Origin: Cohnella sp. AR92
GTDB taxonomy: Bacteria; Bacillota; Bacilli; Paenibacillales; Paenibacillaceae
NCBI RefSeq assembly: GCF_003990975.1
Contig: NZ_RZJR01000005.1
Span: 65,869-129,868 of the forward strand
Reading direction: 5' to 3'
DNA length: 64,000 nucleotides
A program made the translations under genes and the position numbers. Within the stretch, counting starts at the first letter, position 1. Each line of letters begins with the position of its first letter. Positions 117 to 60,036 of the stretch are shown here, in pieces. The notes beneath the pieces were generated by a model that saw only the letters and a program-made list of their open reading frames with translations, was not told the origin of the DNA and did not search any database.

Positions 117-165
117 TTTGCATTTTCTATTCTATTTATCGATGACAAAGGGGATTAGAGCCACC

Positions 166-1443
166 GTGAACGAACACCCTTCCGCCCACTCGATACCCCT
201 CCCTCCTCCGGAAAATCAACTTGCGGCGTTCTTCCAGCCTATCCTTGCGCTGGACAGCCGCCGAATCATCGGATACGAAGTGCTTGGCCGGCAGCTGGAC
301 GGCGATTCCGTTCGCAGCCTCGGTCCTTTCTTCTCGGATCCCAGAGTTCCCGTATCCGAGCAGATTCGAATCGACCGTCTGCTTCGCGAGCAAGCGATCG
401 CCAAGCTAGGCTCCATGGACGAGCCCCCGTCCATCTTCCTTAATCTGAAGCCCTCCTGGATCTACCGGCACTTCAAACAGACCGGGGAGCTGCAGACGCT
501 GCGGATGCTGGAGCGGCACGGCATCGATCCTAGCCGCGTCTGCATCGAGATCACGGAGGAGGAGTTCCGGGGCTCCTTCAAGGAGCTGAACGAGATCATT
601 AACCTTTATCGCGAGCAGGGCTGCCGAATCGCGATCGACGACGTCGGCTCCGACTTCAGCAGCTACGATCGGATCGCCCAGCTTCAACCGCACTTGCTCA
701 AGGTGGATATCCACCTGATGAAGCGAAGCGCTAGCCATAACGGTTATCTCGGCGTCCTTCGCTCGTTCTCCACCCTCGCCGAGCAGATCGGGGCATCCCT
801 GCTGGTCGAAGGAGTCGAGACCCGGCAGGACCTGCAGCGCGCGATTCAGATCGGAGCCCGCTACGTCCAAGGCTACCTCTTCTCTCCGGCGGAACCGGAG
901 TTCCGCGCCGGGAACGAATTTGCCCCGCTGATCGAGGAGGAGCTGGAGGGGCATCGGAAGCTCCTCCACCGGACGGAGCTCTACTGGACGAATCGCGGCA
1001 AGGAACTGCTCCGTTCGATTCGCGAGAACCGGATCCGCGAAGAGCTGGAGCCGGCCGAGGAATATCTGAGGATGGAGAGCGAAGGCGAGAGCGCCGTCGG
1101 CCAAGCCTCGGACGCGGCGGACGCCATTCTGGAGAAGTGGCGTTCCCAGCTGGATTCCACCTGCTTGAGGGTCTACCTGTGCCTGGATAACGGCACGCAG
1201 CTCTCCTCCAACCATGCGCGCATGGCAGACGGCAGTTGGCGGTACGAGCGGGAATACCGCAAGTCGGACTGGAGCTGGCGGCCTTACTTCATTCCTCACC
1301 TGTCCCGGATGGATGGCCTCGCGGAATCCAGATTGTCCCCGAAGTACGCCGACCTCAACACGCGGGAGTGGATTCGCACGCTGTCGCTTCCCATCGGGAA
1401 GCGTCTTGTCCTGTTTCTGGATATGGAGGAGCCGTCGCTCTGA
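166..1443 (+). CDS. ykuI: YkuI-like EAL-domain c-di-GMP protein
   Basis: 425-residue cytoplasmic protein. An EAL domain fills about residues 20-265: the signature Glu is in a degenerate E-V-L (38-40), followed by an Asn in FLNLKP, a Glu in IEITEEE, the metal-binding pair in IAIDDVGSDFSSY, a Lys in LLKVD, a Glu in LVEGVET and QGYLFS. The residues expected for c-di-GMP binding and hydrolysis therefore look present. The C-terminal ~140 residues match the PAS-like YkuI_C domain in position and character. From memory, B. subtilis YkuI binds c-di-GMP without clear phosphodiesterase activity, so this may be a receptor rather than an enzyme. The GTG at 166 is chosen because AAAGGGG lies about 12 bases upstream and the promoter excludes earlier starts; ATG 142 has no ribosome binding site. 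It matters here because a c-di-GMP riboswitch occurs at 47 kb. Confidence 0.85.
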   Translation: MNEHPSAHSIPLPPPENQLAAFFQPILALDSRRIIGYEVLGRQLDGDSVRSLGPFFSDPRVPVSEQIRIDRLLREQAIAKLGSMDEPPSIFLNLKPSWIYRHFKQTGELQTLRMLERHGIDPSRVCIEITEEEFRGSFKELNEIINLYREQGCRIAIDDVGSDFSSYDRIAQLQPHLLKVDIHLMKRSASHNGYLGVLRSFSTLAEQIGASLLVEGVETRQDLQRAIQIGARYVQGYLFSPAEPEFRAGNEFAPLIEEELEGHRKLLHRTELYWTNRGKELLRSIRENRIREELEPAEEYLRMESEGESAVGQASDAADAILEKWRSQLDSTCLRVYLCLDNGTQLSSNHARMADGSWRYEREYRKSDWSWRPYFIPHLSRMDGLAESRLSPKYADLNTREWIRTLSLPIGKRLVLFLDMEEPSL

Positions 1444-38848: not shown

Positions 38849-41800
38849 TTACAGCTTTTCATCAAACTCAATAATTGTTAGAAAAGGCTTGTGTTTTCCT
38901 TTGAATTTTGTGTAATGTTGTAAAATGTACCATGACCTTAAACCTGCCCATCCTATTTGTTGAGTTACGTCCTCTTCATCCAACCCGAAATTATCCCAAA
39001 GCTTAAAATGTAATGTCCCACTATACGAAGACCCCTTCTTTTTAACGGATGATAATTTTATATTATTTCCTTCAAATCCATGAATGGTTATTCCATAACC
39101 TTTAACTTTACTATCTAAGAATCCATTGAAAGAGGGTTGATTAATCGAATTATCTCTCATTTCTACTACCATTAAAGAATTTTCTCTATTTGCTGCATCA
39201 TATTTTAATTTGGATGTGTCACCATTGTACTTCTTCAACAATTTCTTGACCGTTTCCTTGATATCGCTAACATACTTCTTAACAGGCCCTTTATTTCGCA
39301 CTTTATTTGTTAACGTATTGTTTATATATGGAGTACCTGTTCCAGACATGAAATGGTCCACCATGTCCAATGCGATATCTTGCATTCCCCCATAAGAAGT
39401 TGTTTTGAATAAATTTTTAACATCATTTAGAAAATTATTTTTATTTTTAAACTTATCATTATATTTCCAATAACCACCTAATATATTCTTTATTTGTTCT
39501 TTAGACTTGTCGTTGTATTGCATATCCTCGGGGTTCTCACTTATTGGAGCTTGATAGATTAGCAACGGGTCAGCATCACATTTTTTATCTCCTTCACAGG
39601 GCTTATGTCCATTGGGATCGACATATTTTATCGGATTACTACTTACATAAACATACATATTCAAGCTCTGAGGCTTTTCAATCTCACCCTCATAAGTATC
39701 CTCAGAGATAAACCGCCCCGGGCGAGGATCGTAGTAACGAGCCTGCAGGTAGTAGTACTGCGTCTTCCGATCCCAGTAGTAGCCAGCGTAGCGATACGGA
39801 TTCTCTTTAACGAGATCGGTCGTGATGTCTTCAGTCGGATCGACATCTGCCGTATCCATCTCATCCAAGGAGGCCGTGTCGATGCCGGATAAGTCGGCGG
39901 CTTCTTCAACGTCGCTGGAAGCTTCGCTATCCGGTAGAGCGTCTTCCTCTGTAGCTGCAGTGACCGAATCGGATTCCGTGGCGGAAGGAGTTGCGGACTC
40001 TTCAGCAGAAGCGCCCTCGAACGACTGAATCCGAACAGAAGTCTTGTTGCCGTTGCCCCTGTTGTTATCTTTGCCGCCGCCTTCTCCGTTGCCGACGCCG
40101 TTGTTGCCTTTGTTATTGCCGTTGCCGGTATCGTTGTTCTGGCCGTTGCCCGGTTCATAGTCCGGCACGGTGTTGCCGTTCTCGTCTTCAGGACCTTGGA
40201 GAGAGCCCGGGCTGCCGTTGCCGGAGCCGAGGTCGCCGATCCAGCCGATGCCTTCGCGTACCCGCTCGCCGTAACGGTTGTACATGCGGGTGACGACGCC
40301 CCAGGCATCGTATTCGTAGCGGGCGGCGACGTTGCCGTTCTTGTCCGTCAGAGCGACGACATCCCCGTGTCCGTTGTACACGTACCAGAACGTTTGTCCC
40401 TTGAACGTGATGGACAGCGGGCGGTCGTTCGCGTCATAGGTGTAGGACTTGGACGATTCACTGTCTCCGTCCCCGTTCACGACTTCCTCGGTAATCGCCC
40501 ACGTATCGCCCTTGTAGTGGTAAGTTGTCGTCTGCTGCGAGTTGCCTTTATGGTTGAAGTCCGTCTTGGTCACGCGGCGGCCCAGCATGTCGTACGTATA
40601 CTTCTCGCCGAATCCGTCCGGGAAGGTGATCTTCGTCAGTTGGCCGCGAGCGTTCCATTCGTACTTGCTTCGACCGTCAGTGAGCACGTTCCCCGCATCG
40701 TCGTACTTGTAATCGTAATCCTCGTAGCGGATCAGGTTCTCCCGATGGACAAGCTGATTGCGCGAGTTATACTTATAGTTCGTGCCGATGACGGTGTAAC
40801 CCTTGCCGACTTCGCGGATTCGCTCGAACAGCTTGGTCTGTTCGCCCGGCGGCAGGTTCACTTCTCCGTTAACGATATTGTCGATAGCGGCCAGGATGTG
40901 CTCGATCTTGCCCGTCTCGAACAAGGTTTCGATGCTGAGGCTCGTGTCCGAATTCCCGGCAGTTCCCGTAGATGAGCCGGACTCGGAGCTGCTTCCGAAC
41001 AGCTTGTCCAGCTTCTTGTACAGCCCCATCTTCTTGCCGTTGCCATTCTCGAGCGCCTTCAGCCAGCCCGGGGACTTGCAATCTCCGGAGGAGCTGCCTT
41101 TATTCCCGTTACCGTTTCCGTTACCGTTTCCGTTACCATTGCCGTTTCCGTTTCCGTTTCCGTTACCATTTCCATTGCCGTTACCCTTACCGTTGCCGTT
41201 GTTGGCAGCAATGAAGTTCATGTCCGTCGAAGCGATCTTGCCCTCAACGAAGGATGTTTTCTTGCCATTGCCATTCCCGTTACCGTTGTTTCCGTTACCG
41301 TTGTTGCCATTGCCGTTTCCGTTATTACCATTACCGTGATTGCCGTTATTGCCGTTGTTGCCATTCCCATTGTTCGCCTTGCAGGAGCTAACGTCGCCGG
41401 AACCGGATTCCGAAGAGCCGGAGGAATCGTCGGAGCGTTCCTCCTCGTCCTTGTCCGGCATCGGCTTCATTCCATAAGAAGCGAGAACGAGCTCGAGCAG
41501 CTTGTCGGCCGTGATGACTTCGTTCTTGTCTTCAACCGCGCCTTGAATGGTCGTCTTCCGGACGGTACGGTTGCCGGCCTTGTCGTATTCGTACTGCATA
41601 ACGTCGCCTGCCGGCGTCACGACGCGTTCCAGCTGCTCGCTATCGTTGTAGACGTAAGAAGAGGATTTTCCCTGCTCCTTCGAGTCCGTGATGAAGTCTC
41701 GCGCATTGTAGCCGTACCCACTCGCTTGCAGCTCGGCATTCGCGCGATACGTGTTCTTCGTCTCAATGAGGTGCCCCGGCAGGTAGTCGGTGGACGTTCT

Positions 41801-44800
41801 CGTCCCGTTCGGGTAGAGAATGCCCGTGACGTAGCCGTCCGCATCGTATTCGTACGTGTACTTGTTGTTGTTCTCGTCGACGTATGTCAAAGGGCGGCCG
41901 GTCGGGTCGCCGACGATCTCGACTCTCTTGCCGTTGACGATCTCGGCGGACTTCTCGCCGTTCTCGTTGTATTCGTATACGATGGTATCCCCGTTCGGAT
42001 ACGTCGCCATCTTCAATTGGTTGTTGTCGTAATACTCGTACGCAATCGTGCCTTCCTCGCTGGAGCGAGTCAGCACGTTGCCGGCATTATCGTAGGTATA
42101 AGAGGTCCAAGTGCCGTCGCTGTATTCCTCCCGCGTCTTGCGGTTCATGAAGTCGTACTGATAACGGATGGACGTGCCGCCCGGCTTGGCTTCGTACAGC
42201 AGATTGCCGTTCGCGTCGTACTCGTACTCGAACGTATCCTGTCCGGATTCCGGACGAACGACGACCTTCTGCACGCGGCGTCCAAGCTCGTCATAGTCGT
42301 AGGAGGTCAACTGAGTGTTGCCGTCCTGTTGGCTCGTGCGGTTCAGCTCCGCATCGTAGGTATACGCTGTCTTCGCCTGCGGCTCGGTTACGGCAGTCAG
42401 GCTGTCCCGATTATCATAGGCATAGGAGGTCGTGCCGTAAACCGGCTTGGTCTCCGCCAACTGATTGCCGACCGAGTCGTATGCGTACGAATAGCTGCCC
42501 TTGTTGGCCGTCGTCCTCGAGATCATCCGGCCCGCTTGGTCGTACTCGTACTGCGTCGCTTCCTTCAAGCGGTTGAATTCCGTCTTCGTACGGCCGTCCA
42601 GATCCAGGTCGAACCGGAGGACCTCGCCGTTGGCGTCCTTCTCCTGAAGCACATTCCCGCGATAGTCGTATGCCCACTCGGTATCTCGTCCAAGCGGACG
42701 ACGCTCCGCGGTCCGGAAGCCGGCAGGGCTGTATTCGCTGCGCACCCAATGGCCTACGGCGTCCGTCTCCTGCGTCAATTGGCCTTCCGAGTCATAGCCA
42801 TAGGTCGAAGTATGGCCGTTGCCGTCGGTCAGGGCAACGATCAGCCCCCGCGGGTCGTATTGGTACGACATCGCGATCTGGTCGCCCAGCATGGACGGAT
42901 TCGCATAGTGGATCTCTTGCGTCTGGCTTCCGTTCGCATCGTAGACATAGCGAATCACATTGCCGTTCGGATCCTTCTCCAGCGCGACATTGCCGGCTCC
43001 GTCGTACACATAACGGGTGAGCGACGAGACGTTCGCTTCGTTCAGGCTCGTCGTTCCTTCCCGGTAGCTGATGATTTCGGTCTCCCGGCCGTTCAAGTCA
43101 TACCGATATTCCATGATATTGCCGAGCCCATCCAGCGAGATGCGGACATTGCCGGCCGTATCATAGACGCTGACTTCCTCGCTGCCGTCGGGTTGAATCG
43201 TCTTCACCGTACGGCCCATAGCGTCATAGCCGTAGTACGTGCTGCGTTCGGTCACTTGTTCTCCGGCTTTGTTGCGTTCGGTAAGCTGCTTCAGCTGTCC
43301 GTGAGCATCATAGGAATACAGCGAGACCAGTCCCGACGGGGAAGTCGACTGCTTAAGATCGCCTTCCGGCGTATAAACGTTGGTCGTAGTCGCCCATTCG
43401 CTTCCGTTTAATTGCCGGCGTTCCTCAAGCGTGTTCCCCCACGCATCCGTCTTATACTGGATCGTCTGCGTCGCTCCCGAACGGTCGACCTCCTCGATCC
43501 GCTCGGACAGGCGGCCGTAAGCGTCCGTATGATAAACAATCTTCTGGCCTTCCTCGTTTACGCTCTCGGTCGCATTGCCGAAAGCGTCATACGCGGAAGA
43601 GGCAGTCTCTCCGGCTTCCGTTACCGTCTTGATAACCGCTCCGTTCGCATCGTAAGAAGCCTGGCGCGTATAAACGACGGCTTGACCGTTCTCGTCCGTC
43701 GCCGGAATCTTTATCGTCACCGTGCGGCCCGAATAACCGTATTCCGTGACCTGGCCGTTGCCATCCGTCGAGCGAATCAGCCGGCCCAGCTTGTCGTACT
43801 CGCTCTTCGTGCTGGATAGAATCTCTTGCCCATCGTAGAGCTTATCAGGCGTTCCCGTCCCGAGGGCGACACCGTTCCAGGCCGGAACCGGCCCTCCGGC
43901 CGACGTCTCCTCGACGTTGCCGTTGCCGTCGTAGACATAGCGAACCCAGGCGCCTTCGGGATCCTTCTGTTCGACAACCCTTCCCGCGCTATCGTAACGG
44001 TAAGAGGCAATGGCCGTCTGTTCGGCAGCCGAACCGGGGCTTACGGTCATCCCGTCTGGGAAAACAGGCTTGATCGTCGTTTTCTGCTGAATGACCCGGT
44101 CCCATAGATCATAAACGTACTCGGTACGGCCTCCGTCAGCCGCCGCGACCGCCGATTGGCGGCCCGCCTCGTCGTATTCGTACGAGGTGATGCGATTGTC
44201 CGGCGTCACGGTAGAAGCAACGACTTGGCCGGCCAGGTTGTACGCCGTCGCGGTCGTCTCCCCGCGCGAATCCGTGTGCTTCACCACCAGCCCTCGGTTA
44301 TCGTAGACGTAGGACTCCGAGATTTTCCCCGTCGCGCCTGCTTCCAGCGGAACCGTCTCCTGAGTCAGAACGTTCCCCGCTCCGTCCAGGGTATAAGTCG
44401 TCTTCGTAAGGTCGTCCGATTGCTCGACCAGATGGCCGCCGTCGTCATAACGATACGCGCTTCGAATCGCCTTCTCGGCATCGTTCTTATCCGTCTGAAC
44501 ATGCTCGATCACGCGGCCCCAAGCGTCATACTTGAAGTCCTCGACAAGGCCCGTCGGGCCTTCCCGGTGCGTCACCCAACCGACGTCATTAAACGCGGAT
44601 ACGGTCTTCGCCTCGTCAGAAGTTCCCGCATCGACGATCGCTTCGGTTGCATTCCCAAGTTGGTCGTTCGTATAGGAAGTCCTCGTGCCATCAGACGTTA
44701 GGAAGCCGTTCGCGTCATACGTATAAGCGAAAACATTGTTCTCGCCGTCCGTGCGACGAGTCAACAGCCCTTTGTCGTTATACTGCTCCTTCGTAACGAT

Positions 44801-46974
44801 CTTCTGGAACGGATTGATGCCGGCCGGATCGATCGCCGACGTCGTCGTGGTCTTGGAGAGGAGCTTGCGTCCATCCTTGACGTAATCGTAGGCGACTTCG
44901 TAGCCGCCGGGTCCCTTCTCGCGGAGCAGGTCCATCTGATCGTCGTACTCGTAATGAAGGATTCGGCCGGACGAACTCCGCTCGGCCTCGACCAGATCGT
45001 GATCATTGTACCGATAGCGCTGCTCGCGGCCCAGAGGATCGGTTACGGAGACGAGATTGTTCGCGCTGTAGGCATACTTCGTGATCGCCGGCTTCTCGCC
45101 CTCCGGAGTAAGAACCTTCTCTTCATGCTCGGTGAGACGATTAGCGCTATTCCAGCGAAGCGTATATTCGCCGAGGGGCTGGGCGACCGTCGCCGAGCCG
45201 TTCCCGTACTGCACGCCCAAGAACTCTTCCTTCTGATCCTGCTTGCGCTTCATGCTCAAACGGGTTACGCGGTTCCGGTCATCGTACGTCCAGCCCGTGA
45301 CGACGGAGTCCTTCGTGATCCCGGTTCCGCTGCGGTTGTTGTCCCCGTTCTCGACGACGGAGGTCACCCGATGCGCATCGTCGTAGGTAAAGCGGGTGAT
45401 CTTCTGGGACGGCTCCCGGTAGCCGACGAATTCGCCGTCCTCGTTGTACATGAAGAAGAATTTCTTCTTCGGGCTGCTGGCCGTATTGCCGATCCCGTCC
45501 AAGTCGGACATGACGGTCGACTTCAGCTCGCCGGTTCCGCTCTCGTAGTTGAACAGCACCTCATGATTGTTCGTATCGTGAACCGACTCGATCCGAAGAT
45601 CCCGGCCGTAAGAGGTTTGAATGCCCGTCCACTCGAAGTAGATCTCGTTATAATATCGGTCCTGGATCATCCAGAACCGGCCGTCGTTCTTGAAGCGGTA
45701 GCGGAGCTGATCCGGCCACTCCATCACGAACGCGTTGAGATCGAGCGGATTGCTCTCATTCGGGTCCATCGTCAGATGCGGATAATATTGCTGCTGGCCG
45801 TTCGCATAAGTCACATACTCGTTCCCGCTGGGCTTGAACCAATAAAGCGTCCCATCGAAGCCCTGCCAGGTGATGTCCCCCGTCGCCCACTTGGTCAGCC
45901 TGGAGTCCAGATTGAAGCTCCAGCCGTAGCCTAACGAGCTCTTCATCCGGTTCTGGTGGTTGTAGGTAAAATAAATGTCCAGATCGACGCCCGGCCCCTG
46001 CTGCGTGAAGCCTTCGAACGTCTGCGTCCCATTGCCCGTCGCCAGATTGATGCGGACGTTCCGGTCCGCCACGGTTGCTTCCGCGTTCGGAATGGAGGCC
46101 TCCGTACCGGTCCCCGGCATCAGTGGATCGGCCGGCAGCTTCTCCTCGCGCTTATTGCCCGCGGCATCCGTCAACGTGACGACCAGATCTCCCGAGCCAT
46201 TCGGCTTGACGGACAAAGCGGCGAGCATCGGTCCGTCCGTCCAGCTCTTGGAGGCTTGTCCGACTCCCGTTACCGATACCGACTTCAAGCCCGATACGTA
46301 ATCCTTGGCCTCGACGGCGACTCGATCGCCCATCGGGACAATGCCGACCAGTTCGGGAGCCGTGCGATCCAGCGCGACCAGCTGATATTCCTGGTCGTAG
46401 GCGGGTGCCGTGAGCGCCTTCTTCGTTGGCGCACCGCCTTCTGCTTCAGGCGGCAGCTCAAAGGTAACCTGCGGCGCTGTCGCTTTGATTTTCCAATAAT
46501 AGTTGCCGTCCGGAATGAGGTTGCCCTCCGCATCCTTGCCGTTCCACTTGAACGAGTTCAGGCCGCTGCTGTCCTTATGGTCGCTGAGCAAGGTGTAAAT
46601 CTCGCTGGTCTGAGCATCCTTCAGCTCAGCGTCATCGATCCCGCGGAGGATGGGAAGTACGCGGCCGTATCGCCCATCTTCAGGTAAGCCCCGCCTCCGC
46701 CCATCCGATCATCCGGCTTCTCCGGGTGCTCCTCCAGCACCTGGTCGCCGGTGAATTGATAGTACTGCGGAGTCTCGGTAAGATCCTCCCCGTCCTTCCA
46801 TTGCTCCTGCTGCTGCTCCTGCTTCAGGCTTGCGGCTATCGCATCCCAGCCTTTGGCCAGAGCCGAGCCGGCTTCATTCGCCGCCTCCGCCCATACGGCC
46901 CCCGGCGCTAAACCCAGGAGCAAGCTCGCGATTACCGCCGAGGCTACTCCCTTATTGAATCTTCTTTTCCCCAT
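38849..46974 (-). CDS. Secreted RHS/YD-repeat polymorphic toxin with DUF3289-like tip (frameshifted)
   Basis: About 2,708 residues if one base is restored. A Sec signal peptide (about 1-30, cut near VWAEA) starts at ATG 46974. That frame stops at 46621, while the rest is open one frame over. Adding one C to the CCC run at 46654-46652 joins them as AYFPILRGIDDAEL and makes the gene a whole number of codons. Next come a FlgD-like Ig segment (SFKWNGKDAEGN, PDGNYYW), a DUF6531-type region and dozens of YD repeats (YEYDAxG) to about residue 2270, with three Asn-Gly low-complexity blocks (about 1875-1960 and 2270-2310). The RHS core (YRYAGYYWDRKTQYYYLQARYYDP) ends in DPNGHKP near 2460. The last ~250 residues form the toxin tip, with MSGTGTPY, YGITIH, LWDNFGLDEED and LQHYTKF, as in DUF3289 of Gram-negative effectors. 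GC content falls sharply at the tip. Expression is behind a c-di-GMP-I riboswitch. Confidence 0.87.
41093..41381 (-). repeat. Hexanucleotide microsatellite coding Asn-Gly runs
   Basis: Two blocks (about 41093-41212 and 41266-41381) consist of tandem GGNAAY-type hexamers on the coding strand. A shorter relative lies near 40040-40160. Slippage by whole units keeps the reading frame and would vary linker length within the RHS protein. Confidence 0.7.
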
Positions 46975-46995
46975 TCTGCTCCCGCACGAGACAAC

Positions 46996-47130
46996 AAAAA
47001 AAACCGCAACGCCAATAAGCGTGCGGCTTCCTATTCAAGGCAGCTCAAACAAGCGCTTCGGCGGTCTGGCGATCCGACGTGGGACCCATGACTTTGCGTC
47101 CCCACCTTGCGATGGGTTTGCCTTTTTCGG
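46996..47130 (-). promoter_or_regulatory. c-di-GMP-I (GEMM-I) riboswitch with terminator
   Basis: On the minus strand, GGCAAACCCATCGCAAGG (47125-47108) continues with TGGGGACGCAAAG (47107-47095), the conserved first half of the class I c-di-GMP aptamer, including a GNRA loop (GCAA). The second arm ends GCCAGACCGCCGAAG. An intrinsic terminator follows: CCGCACGC with GCGTTGCGG (47026-47004) and eight U residues (47003-46996). The RHS start codon is 22 bases beyond. A -10 TATAAT (47183-47178) lies upstream without a good -35. Whether c-di-GMP turns expression on or off is not decided by inspection. Confidence 0.9.
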
Positions 47131-47258
47131 TTAAACTTCGTTGAGTCTTCGTTTCTATCTGGGACAAATTTACTTTTATTATAGCGATTTATGGGGACTT
47201 GAGTAGTATATTGTGGAAAAATAGTCCAAAAGGAGGGGGTTGAAGCCGAGAACTAAAA

Positions 47259-58559: not shown

Positions 58560-58863
58560 AAACTAAATGCGATGAAGAGAAGAGTAGATAAATGGATTCT
58601 TTCCCAGAGAGCTCCGGTTGCTGTGAAGGAGCAGAGAATCCCTTATCGAAAAAAGACTCTGAGCAGCGTGCCGGAACCGGTCTTCGGATACGGGGGTGGC
58701 GCGCCAGGAGCTCCTGTTACAGAGCTAGAGTATCATCCTGATCCGTTCAGGCCGTACTCGAAGAGGCGGACATGGCGACATCTCCGCGAATCTGGGGTGG
58801 TACCACGGGAATCCAATCTCGTCCCTAAGACTGTAGCCAGTCTTGGGGGTGGGATTTTTTTGT
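58560..58863 (+). promoter_or_regulatory. T-box riboswitch with lysine (AAA) specifier
   Basis: Stem I: AGAGTAGATAA at 58580, GGATTC/GAATCC helix, AG-bulge AGAGAGCTCC and GGTTGCTGTGAAGGAG. The specifier loop 3' strand reads GAA-AAA-A-G (58648-58655), so the specifier is AAA, Lys. The T-box GGGGTGGTACCACGGG (58794-58809) presents UGGU, which matches a tRNA ending in ACCA as Bacillus tRNA-Lys does. The terminator AAGACTG/CAGTCTT (near 58827-58844, with outer pairing) ends in a run of T at 58855-58861. Uncharged tRNA-Lys should favour antitermination. Confidence 0.88.
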
Positions 58864-58947: not shown

Positions 58948-60036
58948 ATGACGCAAGCACTGAAGGTCGGCATCGTTGGAGGAACGGGAATGGTGGGACA
59001 GCGGTTCATCCAACTGCTGGACGGACACCCTTGGTTTAAAGTAACGGCTATCGCGGCCAGCGCAGGCTCGGCCGGCAAGACATACGAGCAATCCGTGCAA
59101 GGCAGATGGAAGCTCTCCACTCCGATCCCGGAGGACGTGAAGTCCATCATGGTTCAGGATGCATCCAAAGTGGAAGAAGTCGCTTCCGGCGTCGATTTTA
59201 TTTTCTGCGCGGTCGACATGAAGAAGGATGAGATCAAGGCGCTTGAGGAAGCCTACGCCAAGACGGGAACGCCTGTCGTCTCGAACAACTCGGCTCACCG
59301 CTGGACGGAAGACGTGCCGATGGTCATTCCGGAGATCAACCCGGGCCATCTCAAGGTAATCGAAGCGCAGCGCAAGCGTCTCGGCACCTCCACCGGCTTC
59401 ATTGCCGTGAAGCCGAACTGCTCGATTCAGAGCTATGTGCCGATGCTGAACGCCCTGCAGGAATTCAAGCCGAAGACGGTTGTCGCGTCGACTTATCAAG
59501 CAATCTCCGGCGCCGGCAAGACCTTCGCCGACTGGCCGGAGATGCTGGACAACGTCATCCCGTACATCGGCGGAGAAGAAGAGAAGAGCGAGCAGGAGCC
59601 TCTTCGCATCTGGGGTACCGTAGAAGACGGGAAGATCGTGAAGGCGAGCGAGCCGGTTATTACGACCCAGTGCATTCGCGTACCGGTCTTGGATGGCCAC
59701 CTCGCAACGGTGTTCGTCAACTTCGAGAAGAAGCCTTCTAAGGAGCAAATTCTAGAGGCTTGGAAGAACTTCAAGGGACGCCCGCAAGAACTAGAGCTGC
59801 CGAGCGCGCCCAAGCAGTTCATCACTTACTTCGAAGAAGAGAACCGTCCGCAGACGAATCTCGACCGCGACATCGAGGGCGGCATGGGCATCTCCGCCGG
59901 CCGTCTGCGCGAAGATTCCCTGTACGACTTCAAGTTCGTCGGCCTCTCGCACAACACGCTCCGCGGAGCGGCGGGCGGCGCCGTGCTGATCGCCGAGCTG
60001 CTGACGGCGGAAGGCTATATCAAGGCGAAGCAATAA
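58948..60036 (+). CDS. asd: Aspartate-semialdehyde dehydrogenase
   Basis: 362 residues. NADP-binding GGTGMVGQRFIQLL, catalytic Cys158 in VKPNCSIQSY, QAISGAGKTF, and the C-terminal RVPVLDGHLATVFV plus GGMGISAGRLR. It is of the archaeal/fungal-like longer class (about 350-365 residues), with SNNSAHRW, rather than the shorter B. subtilis type. It makes aspartate semialdehyde for lysine/diaminopimelate, threonine and methionine. The ATG follows GAGGAGATTGACGA. Controlled by the upstream lysine T-box. Confidence 0.95.
   Translation: MTQALKVGIVGGTGMVGQRFIQLLDGHPWFKVTAIAASAGSAGKTYEQSVQGRWKLSTPIPEDVKSIMVQDASKVEEVASGVDFIFCAVDMKKDEIKALEEAYAKTGTPVVSNNSAHRWTEDVPMVIPEINPGHLKVIEAQRKRLGTSTGFIAVKPNCSIQSYVPMLNALQEFKPKTVVASTYQAISGAGKTFADWPEMLDNVIPYIGGEEEKSEQEPLRIWGTVEDGKIVKASEPVITTQCIRVPVLDGHLATVFVNFEKKPSKEQILEAWKNFKGRPQELELPSAPKQFITYFEEENRPQTNLDRDIEGGMGISAGRLREDSLYDFKFVGLSHNTLRGAAGGAVLIAELLTAEGYIKAKQ

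Follow-up and report, generated by a model that had tools for sequence, protein, structure and literature searches.

A conserved class I c-di-GMP riboswitch predicted in the leader of a secreted RHS polymorphic-toxin gene of Cohnella sp. AR92

Introduction

Can a bacterium place a toxin for use against its neighbours directly under the control of the second messenger cyclic di-GMP (c-di-GMP)? This question is raised by a locus of Cohnella sp. AR92, in which a candidate c-di-GMP riboswitch lies upstream of a gene for an RHS polymorphic toxin. The stretch of DNA analysed, referred to below as the window, comprises 64,000 nucleotides (nt) of contig NZ_RZJR01000005.1 (positions 65,869 to 129,868 of the forward strand), and all coordinates given are those of the window. 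The original prediction for this locus held that the riboswitch gates the toxin, which would tie intercellular competition to the sessile/biofilm decision. The analysis presented here suggests that transcription of a secreted RHS polymorphic-toxin operon is governed by a type II class I c-di-GMP riboswitch acting through conditional termination, with c-di-GMP turning the toxin off, and a probability of roughly 0.6 is assigned to this reading.

Identification of the aptamer

A cmscan search of the whole window matched the minus strand at 47131-47056 to the Rfam family RF03167 (c-di-GMP-I-GGC) with 69.5 bits (cut-off 59, E 2.2e-14), and a search of the whole genome matched the same site to RF01051 with 63.2 bits (cut-off 35, E 1.2e-11), the two families being members of one clan. 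These matches bear out the class I c-di-GMP aptamer that had been claimed for the locus. An RF01051 search of the minus strand had been proposed as a check, with the lack of a hit to count against the claim, and its result was above threshold. The interval originally singled out, 46996-47130, corresponds to the aptamer together with the terminator described below.

The residues of class I aptamers that contact the ligand are G20, A47 and C92 (PMC11218506), given here in the Vc2 numbering used in that study and assigned to alignment columns via the Rfam pairing lines. All three are present in the window aptamer. In an alignment of 14 aptamers, comprising that of the window and those of 13 relatives, G20 and A47 were each found in 14/14 sequences and C92 in 13/14. 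Class I riboswitches of the "type II" kind have a GYRA loop and are without the 11-nt receptor (PMC11218506). The loop of the window aptamer is GCAA and its P3 stem is short; a GYRA loop was present in 13 of the 14 aptamers (the window and 12 of its 13 relatives), with GAGA in the remaining one. Covariation was seen in the P2 stem, where two base pairs are altered on both sides in 4-5 of the 14 sequences and a third pair in one of them, while P3 is nearly invariant across the alignment and so uninformative on compensatory changes. Judged by its sequence, the element belongs to the ordinary c-di-GMP-I aptamers of type II. As the canonical contact residues and the type II GYRA features fit the window and nearly all of its relatives, c-di-GMP is the expected ligand.

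Conservation of the aptamer upstream of RHS genes

Orthologues of the RHS protein were searched for using its N-terminal 450 amino acids (aa) as query, which yielded 6 in a set of 37 genomes from the genus and 14 in 396 genomes from the family, the window included, those of the family search occurring in Cohnella and Paenibacillus species. In all 14 family orthologues the aptamer, the terminator and the start codon follow each other in this order. A fifteenth orthologue, from another family and found in an order-wide sample (G412), is preceded by a canonical GAAA-type RF01051 aptamer of 83 bits. By comparison, seven other RHS genes of the genus were detected with a profile of the same region, and none of them lies near any c-di-GMP-I match in its own genome. 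The 14 aptamers were also used to build a covariance model, which gave 100-103 bits for the six RHS-linked aptamers of the genus, themselves part of its training set, and no more than 79.7 bits for the other riboswitches of the genus. A real and conserved class I c-di-GMP riboswitch is thus predicted to precede one group of RHS orthologues.

The exact pattern of the invariant P3 was found at 17 sites in the 396 genomes, of which 14 are the RHS leaders and three are leaders of an unrelated secreted protein with an SLH-like end. An aptamer subtype exclusive to RHS genes was rejected because of these three sites. This second secreted family (L118, L119 and L120, within the first 2.5 kb of each; about 710-730 aa) has an aptamer with a near-identical P3, its GGCAA segment being shorter by one A.

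Leader anatomy and direction of control

The features of the locus are listed in Table 1. As originally predicted, an intrinsic terminator stands between the aptamer and the start codon (ATG at 46974), its hairpin having a folding energy of about -15 kcal/mol and being followed by eight T; terminators were found in all 14 leaders. A putative promoter lies ahead of the aptamer. It has a TATAAT box, and 13 of the 14 leaders have a TATAAT or TAAAAT box in this place, but the putative -35 element, 16 nt upstream of the TATAAT, is poor, and a consensus promoter scan, itself uninformative, did not report this promoter.

Table 1. Features of the riboswitch leader and RHS locus in the window
Feature	Position	Strand	Basis or remark
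Putative promoter (TATAAT 47183-47178; -35 TACTCA 47205-47200)	47178..47205	-	Read from sequence
Class I c-di-GMP aptamer, type II (predicted)	47056..47131	-	Rfam matches, alignment of 14, own covariance model (100.8 bits)
Aptamer 3' tail CGCCGAAGC, including C92 and C93; candidate antiterminator strand	47055..47063	-	
Intrinsic terminator (hairpin 47027-47004; U-tract 47003-46996)	46996..47027	-	Sequence, folding
Shine-Dalgarno GGGAG	46979..46983	-	Read from sequence; 4 nt upstream of start ATG
RHS gene, 5' part: 117 aa, Sec-type signal peptide, premature stop	46621..46974	-	
RHS gene, main part: 2580 aa, FlgD-like Ig domain, DUF6531, RHS repeats, C-terminal DUF3289 tip	38849..46591	-	
Candidate immunity protein 1: 186 aa, N-terminal hydrophobic segment	38252..38812	-	Position after toxin gene
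Candidate immunity protein 2: 186 aa	37506..38066	-	58% identical to protein 1 over 167 aa

The prediction of the direction of control draws on the 3' tail of the aptamer. In the window, the terminator segment 47021-47010 (CGCUUAUUGGCG) is complementary to this tail, and in 14/14 leaders the aptamer end CGCCGAAG, C92 and C93 included, is complementary to the terminator loop and the upper part of the terminator 3' strand (CUUA-GGCG type). In three distant leaders a U for C in the tail is matched by an A for G in the terminator, with the pairing kept. Matched pairs of tail and terminator were more stable than swapped pairs (p = 0.004) and none of 2000 shuffles reached the observed value, in a comparison uncorrected for the relatedness of the leaders. 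Complementarity tests on single leaders were weak (shuffle fractions of 0.02-0.3), and it is the joint test across leaders that is convincing. Partition-function folding of growing transcripts found the tail pairing to be dominant as GGCG emerges in 11 of the 14 leaders, after which the completed hairpin prevails in most, as would be expected of an OFF switch under kinetic control. It should also be noted that in another leader of this genome, preceding a xylanase gene (see below), inspection of the sequence indicates a possible pairing of this same tail with the 5' strand of the terminator.

It is proposed that without c-di-GMP the tail CGCCGAAG would pair with the emerging terminator loop and upper 3' strand and delay the hairpin, with the result that the polymerase would read into the toxin gene. 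Bound c-di-GMP would lock the tail into the aptamer, upon which the terminator would form and the toxin would be turned off. Toxin would then be made at low c-di-GMP, a level associated with the motile state. Export of the RHS protein would be via Sec; its DUF3289 tip would target the envelope of neighbouring cells, and the 186-aa proteins, anchored in the membrane, would shield the producer. On the sign of control the original prediction, which implied a toxin tied to the sessile or biofilm state, is not supported by the leader anatomy, since the latter predicts an OFF switch.

The RHS gene and its interruption in this genome

The RHS locus is predicted to be of standard polymorphic-toxin anatomy, with immunity genes assigned by position and homology, and its RHS repeats were matched with 394 bits. 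A homologue of candidate immunity protein 1 is also found behind a DUF3289-tipped orthologue (G174/L063). Other DUF3289 proteins have been shown to be toxic, with a colicin-M-like nature proposed for them (PMC11148199), and for one a role as antibacterial effector of a type VI secretion system (T6SS) is confirmed (PMC12135965). The C-terminal tips of the orthologues differ, each being followed by a small gene of its own, and several of the orthologue loci carry orphan C-terminal cassettes. In Paenibacillus harenae (L121, G338) a long array of RHS C-terminal cassettes and immunity-like genes was observed downstream of the riboswitch-led RHS gene.

The toxin was originally described as a secreted RHS protein of about 2,700 residues. 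A secreted RHS protein is indeed encoded, but not by a single open reading frame (ORF), as the gene is split into parts of 117 aa and 2580 aa in different frames. Compared to its orthologues, about 85 nt are deleted out of frame at about 46622-46630, corresponding to about 28 codons and one base, which creates the premature stop, in a region where the frame is uninterrupted in 12 other orthologues. The remaining 2580 codons are open, and the aptamer and terminator are intact. A programmed frameshift was not favoured, since the junction lacks about 28 codons that are present in the orthologues and no slippery site was seen. The junction (46621-46631, minus strand) carries a GAGCTG motif, which may point to slippage from one short repeat to another. 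In the orthologue of Cohnella kolymensis (G012, L070), two mutually cancelling frame changes, either real or due to sequencing error, were noted in the same region of the gene, at about 1400-2150 in gene orientation. As the assembly of the window is a draft, its frame break may be an assembly error. Taken as it stands, the interrupted ORF makes it doubtful that a full-length toxin is under riboswitch control in this strain, where the switch would probably yield none, while the case at the level of the family is unaffected.

Alternative explanations

c-di-GMP-I riboswitches are common in the genus (36 of 37 genomes, with up to 20 each), and the aptamer could lie beside the RHS gene by chance or serve something else. 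This is considered extremely improbable, given that in 15/15 orthologues the aptamer is located 5' on the same strand and is followed by the start codon, an arrangement found in 0/7 of the other RHS genes. A variant aptamer for another ligand, as the higher score of the "c-di-GMP-I-GGC" model might suggest (69.5 against 63.2 bits), also appears very unlikely. The window is like RF03167 in scoring above its cut-off and in having a short P3 without the tetraloop receptor, and the absence of this receptor from both window and model accounts for the higher score. We infer that "GGC" in the family name denotes G20-G47-C92, the mark of an A47G variant. Position 47 is G in the model consensus but A in the window and each of its 13 relatives, and for this reason the window is not regarded as a true RF03167 member despite its top score. 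G20 and C92 are likewise canonical in the window, and in the G412 orthologue the aptamer ahead of the same gene is canonical throughout; the altered-ligand variant was rejected on residue 47 and this orthologue. The riboswitch for cyclic AMP-GMP (GEMM-Ib) has A at position 20, the residue that is G in 14/14 of the aptamers examined here.

With regard to the direction of control and to its role in this strain, several observations weigh against the proposed termination by c-di-GMP. In most leaders, that of the window among them, the full terminator has the greater fold stability even when no ligand is bound, and the proposed OFF switch therefore rests on co-transcriptional kinetics. In addition, the aptamer of Cohnella luojiensis (L059) has U at C92, the matched-pair comparison carries no correction for relatedness, the RHS ORF of the window itself is broken, and class I termination switches are known in both directions, being OFF in Clostridioides difficile and ON for Bc2 of Bacillus thuringiensis (PMC6366702). 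The stability of the terminator without ligand and the Bc2 switch, a precedent within the Bacillota for a class I transcriptional ON switch, would favour read-through promoted by c-di-GMP with toxin made in the sessile or biofilm state, which is closest to the original prediction; in one leader (L066) inspection of the sequence also suggests that the strand closing the aptamer may share bases with the terminator. However, P1 of the window ends about 16 nt short of the terminator, so that its formation would not disrupt the terminator, and the conserved complementarity links the ligand-binding tail to the terminator, as would be expected of an OFF switch. Promotion of read-through by c-di-GMP is thus judged unlikely, and termination upon binding of c-di-GMP is preferred. 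It is, on balance, slightly probable that the riboswitch family is real but the locus is inactive in this strain, the toxin gene being a pseudogene and the leader a relic. The out-of-frame deletion points to this, against which can be set the intact aptamer, terminator and remaining 2580 codons and the draft state of the genome, and it does not touch the 12 orthologues whose frame is unbroken at this place. The original claim that a riboswitch gates an RHS toxin holds for the link between aptamer and gene, conserved in 15/15 orthologues, but in AR92 the element may gate nothing functional.

c-di-GMP signalling in the genome

The genome encodes 15 GGDEF and 9 EAL domains above cut-off and, therefore, c-di-GMP signalling is present. 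A YkuI-like c-di-GMP protein reported for the window was recovered as an EAL-domain ORF (118-1443, plus strand), with the EAL match at about 214-888. Three c-di-GMP-I riboswitches were found in the genome, namely the RHS leader, one before a gene for a PilZ protein and one before a gene for a GH10 xylanase, the last two families being read from sequence. Among the riboswitch targets sampled in the genus are FapA-like, PilZ and GGDEF proteins, transglutaminases, methyl-accepting chemotaxis proteins and the RHS family. Elsewhere in the window, a T-box leader (RF00230, 100.9 bits, 58563-58829, plus strand) lies upstream of a semialdehyde dehydrogenase-like gene (58948-60036).

Relation to known systems

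The element shares with class I c-di-GMP riboswitches of type II (GEMM, RF01051; PMC11218506) the core fold, G20/A47/C92, the GYRA loop and a terminator-type expression platform. It differs in its target, an RHS polymorphic toxin, and in that its antiterminator appears to capture the terminator loop and 3' strand. The gene product resembles WapA of Bacillus subtilis and other secreted RHS polymorphic toxins of Gram-positive bacteria in its Sec-type signal peptide, RHS repeats, variable C-terminal tip and downstream immunity gene, while the N-terminus with FlgD-like Ig domain and DUF6531 and the riboswitch leader set it apart from WapA-type toxins. In Vibrio cholerae and Vibrio parahaemolyticus, the TfoY leader links c-di-GMP to an antibacterial contact weapon active at low c-di-GMP (PMC6618264). 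There, however, the weapon is the T6SS and the link is indirect, via a regulator protein, whereas here the aptamer is on the toxin gene itself. The Cd1 leader of the C. difficile flgB operon is also a class I OFF switch acting by termination and lowers toxin through SigD (PMC6366702), yet this effect is indirect and the toxin host-directed, in contrast to the direct control of a putative interbacterial toxin proposed here. A search of full-text literature for riboswitches together with RHS, YD repeat, WapA or polymorphic toxin found no report of direct control, which is weak evidence as it covered open-access texts only. Riboswitch and RHS toxin are both of known kinds, in what is apparently an undescribed combination.

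The odds are seen as about even that c-di-GMP directly switches a whole Gram-positive family of RHS interbacterial toxins by termination, with toxin made in the motile, low c-di-GMP state, and that the riboswitch is part of a transmissible module which moves between genera while its tips are exchanged. The predicted sign, toxin at low c-di-GMP, would fit the indirect control of the Vibrio T6SS via TfoY and runs counter to the intuitive reading of a "biofilm weapon". Because the link is fixed in 15/15 orthologues over several genera and absent from the other RHS genes, whether antagonism of neighbours is tied to the motile or the sessile state via c-di-GMP is now a directly testable question.
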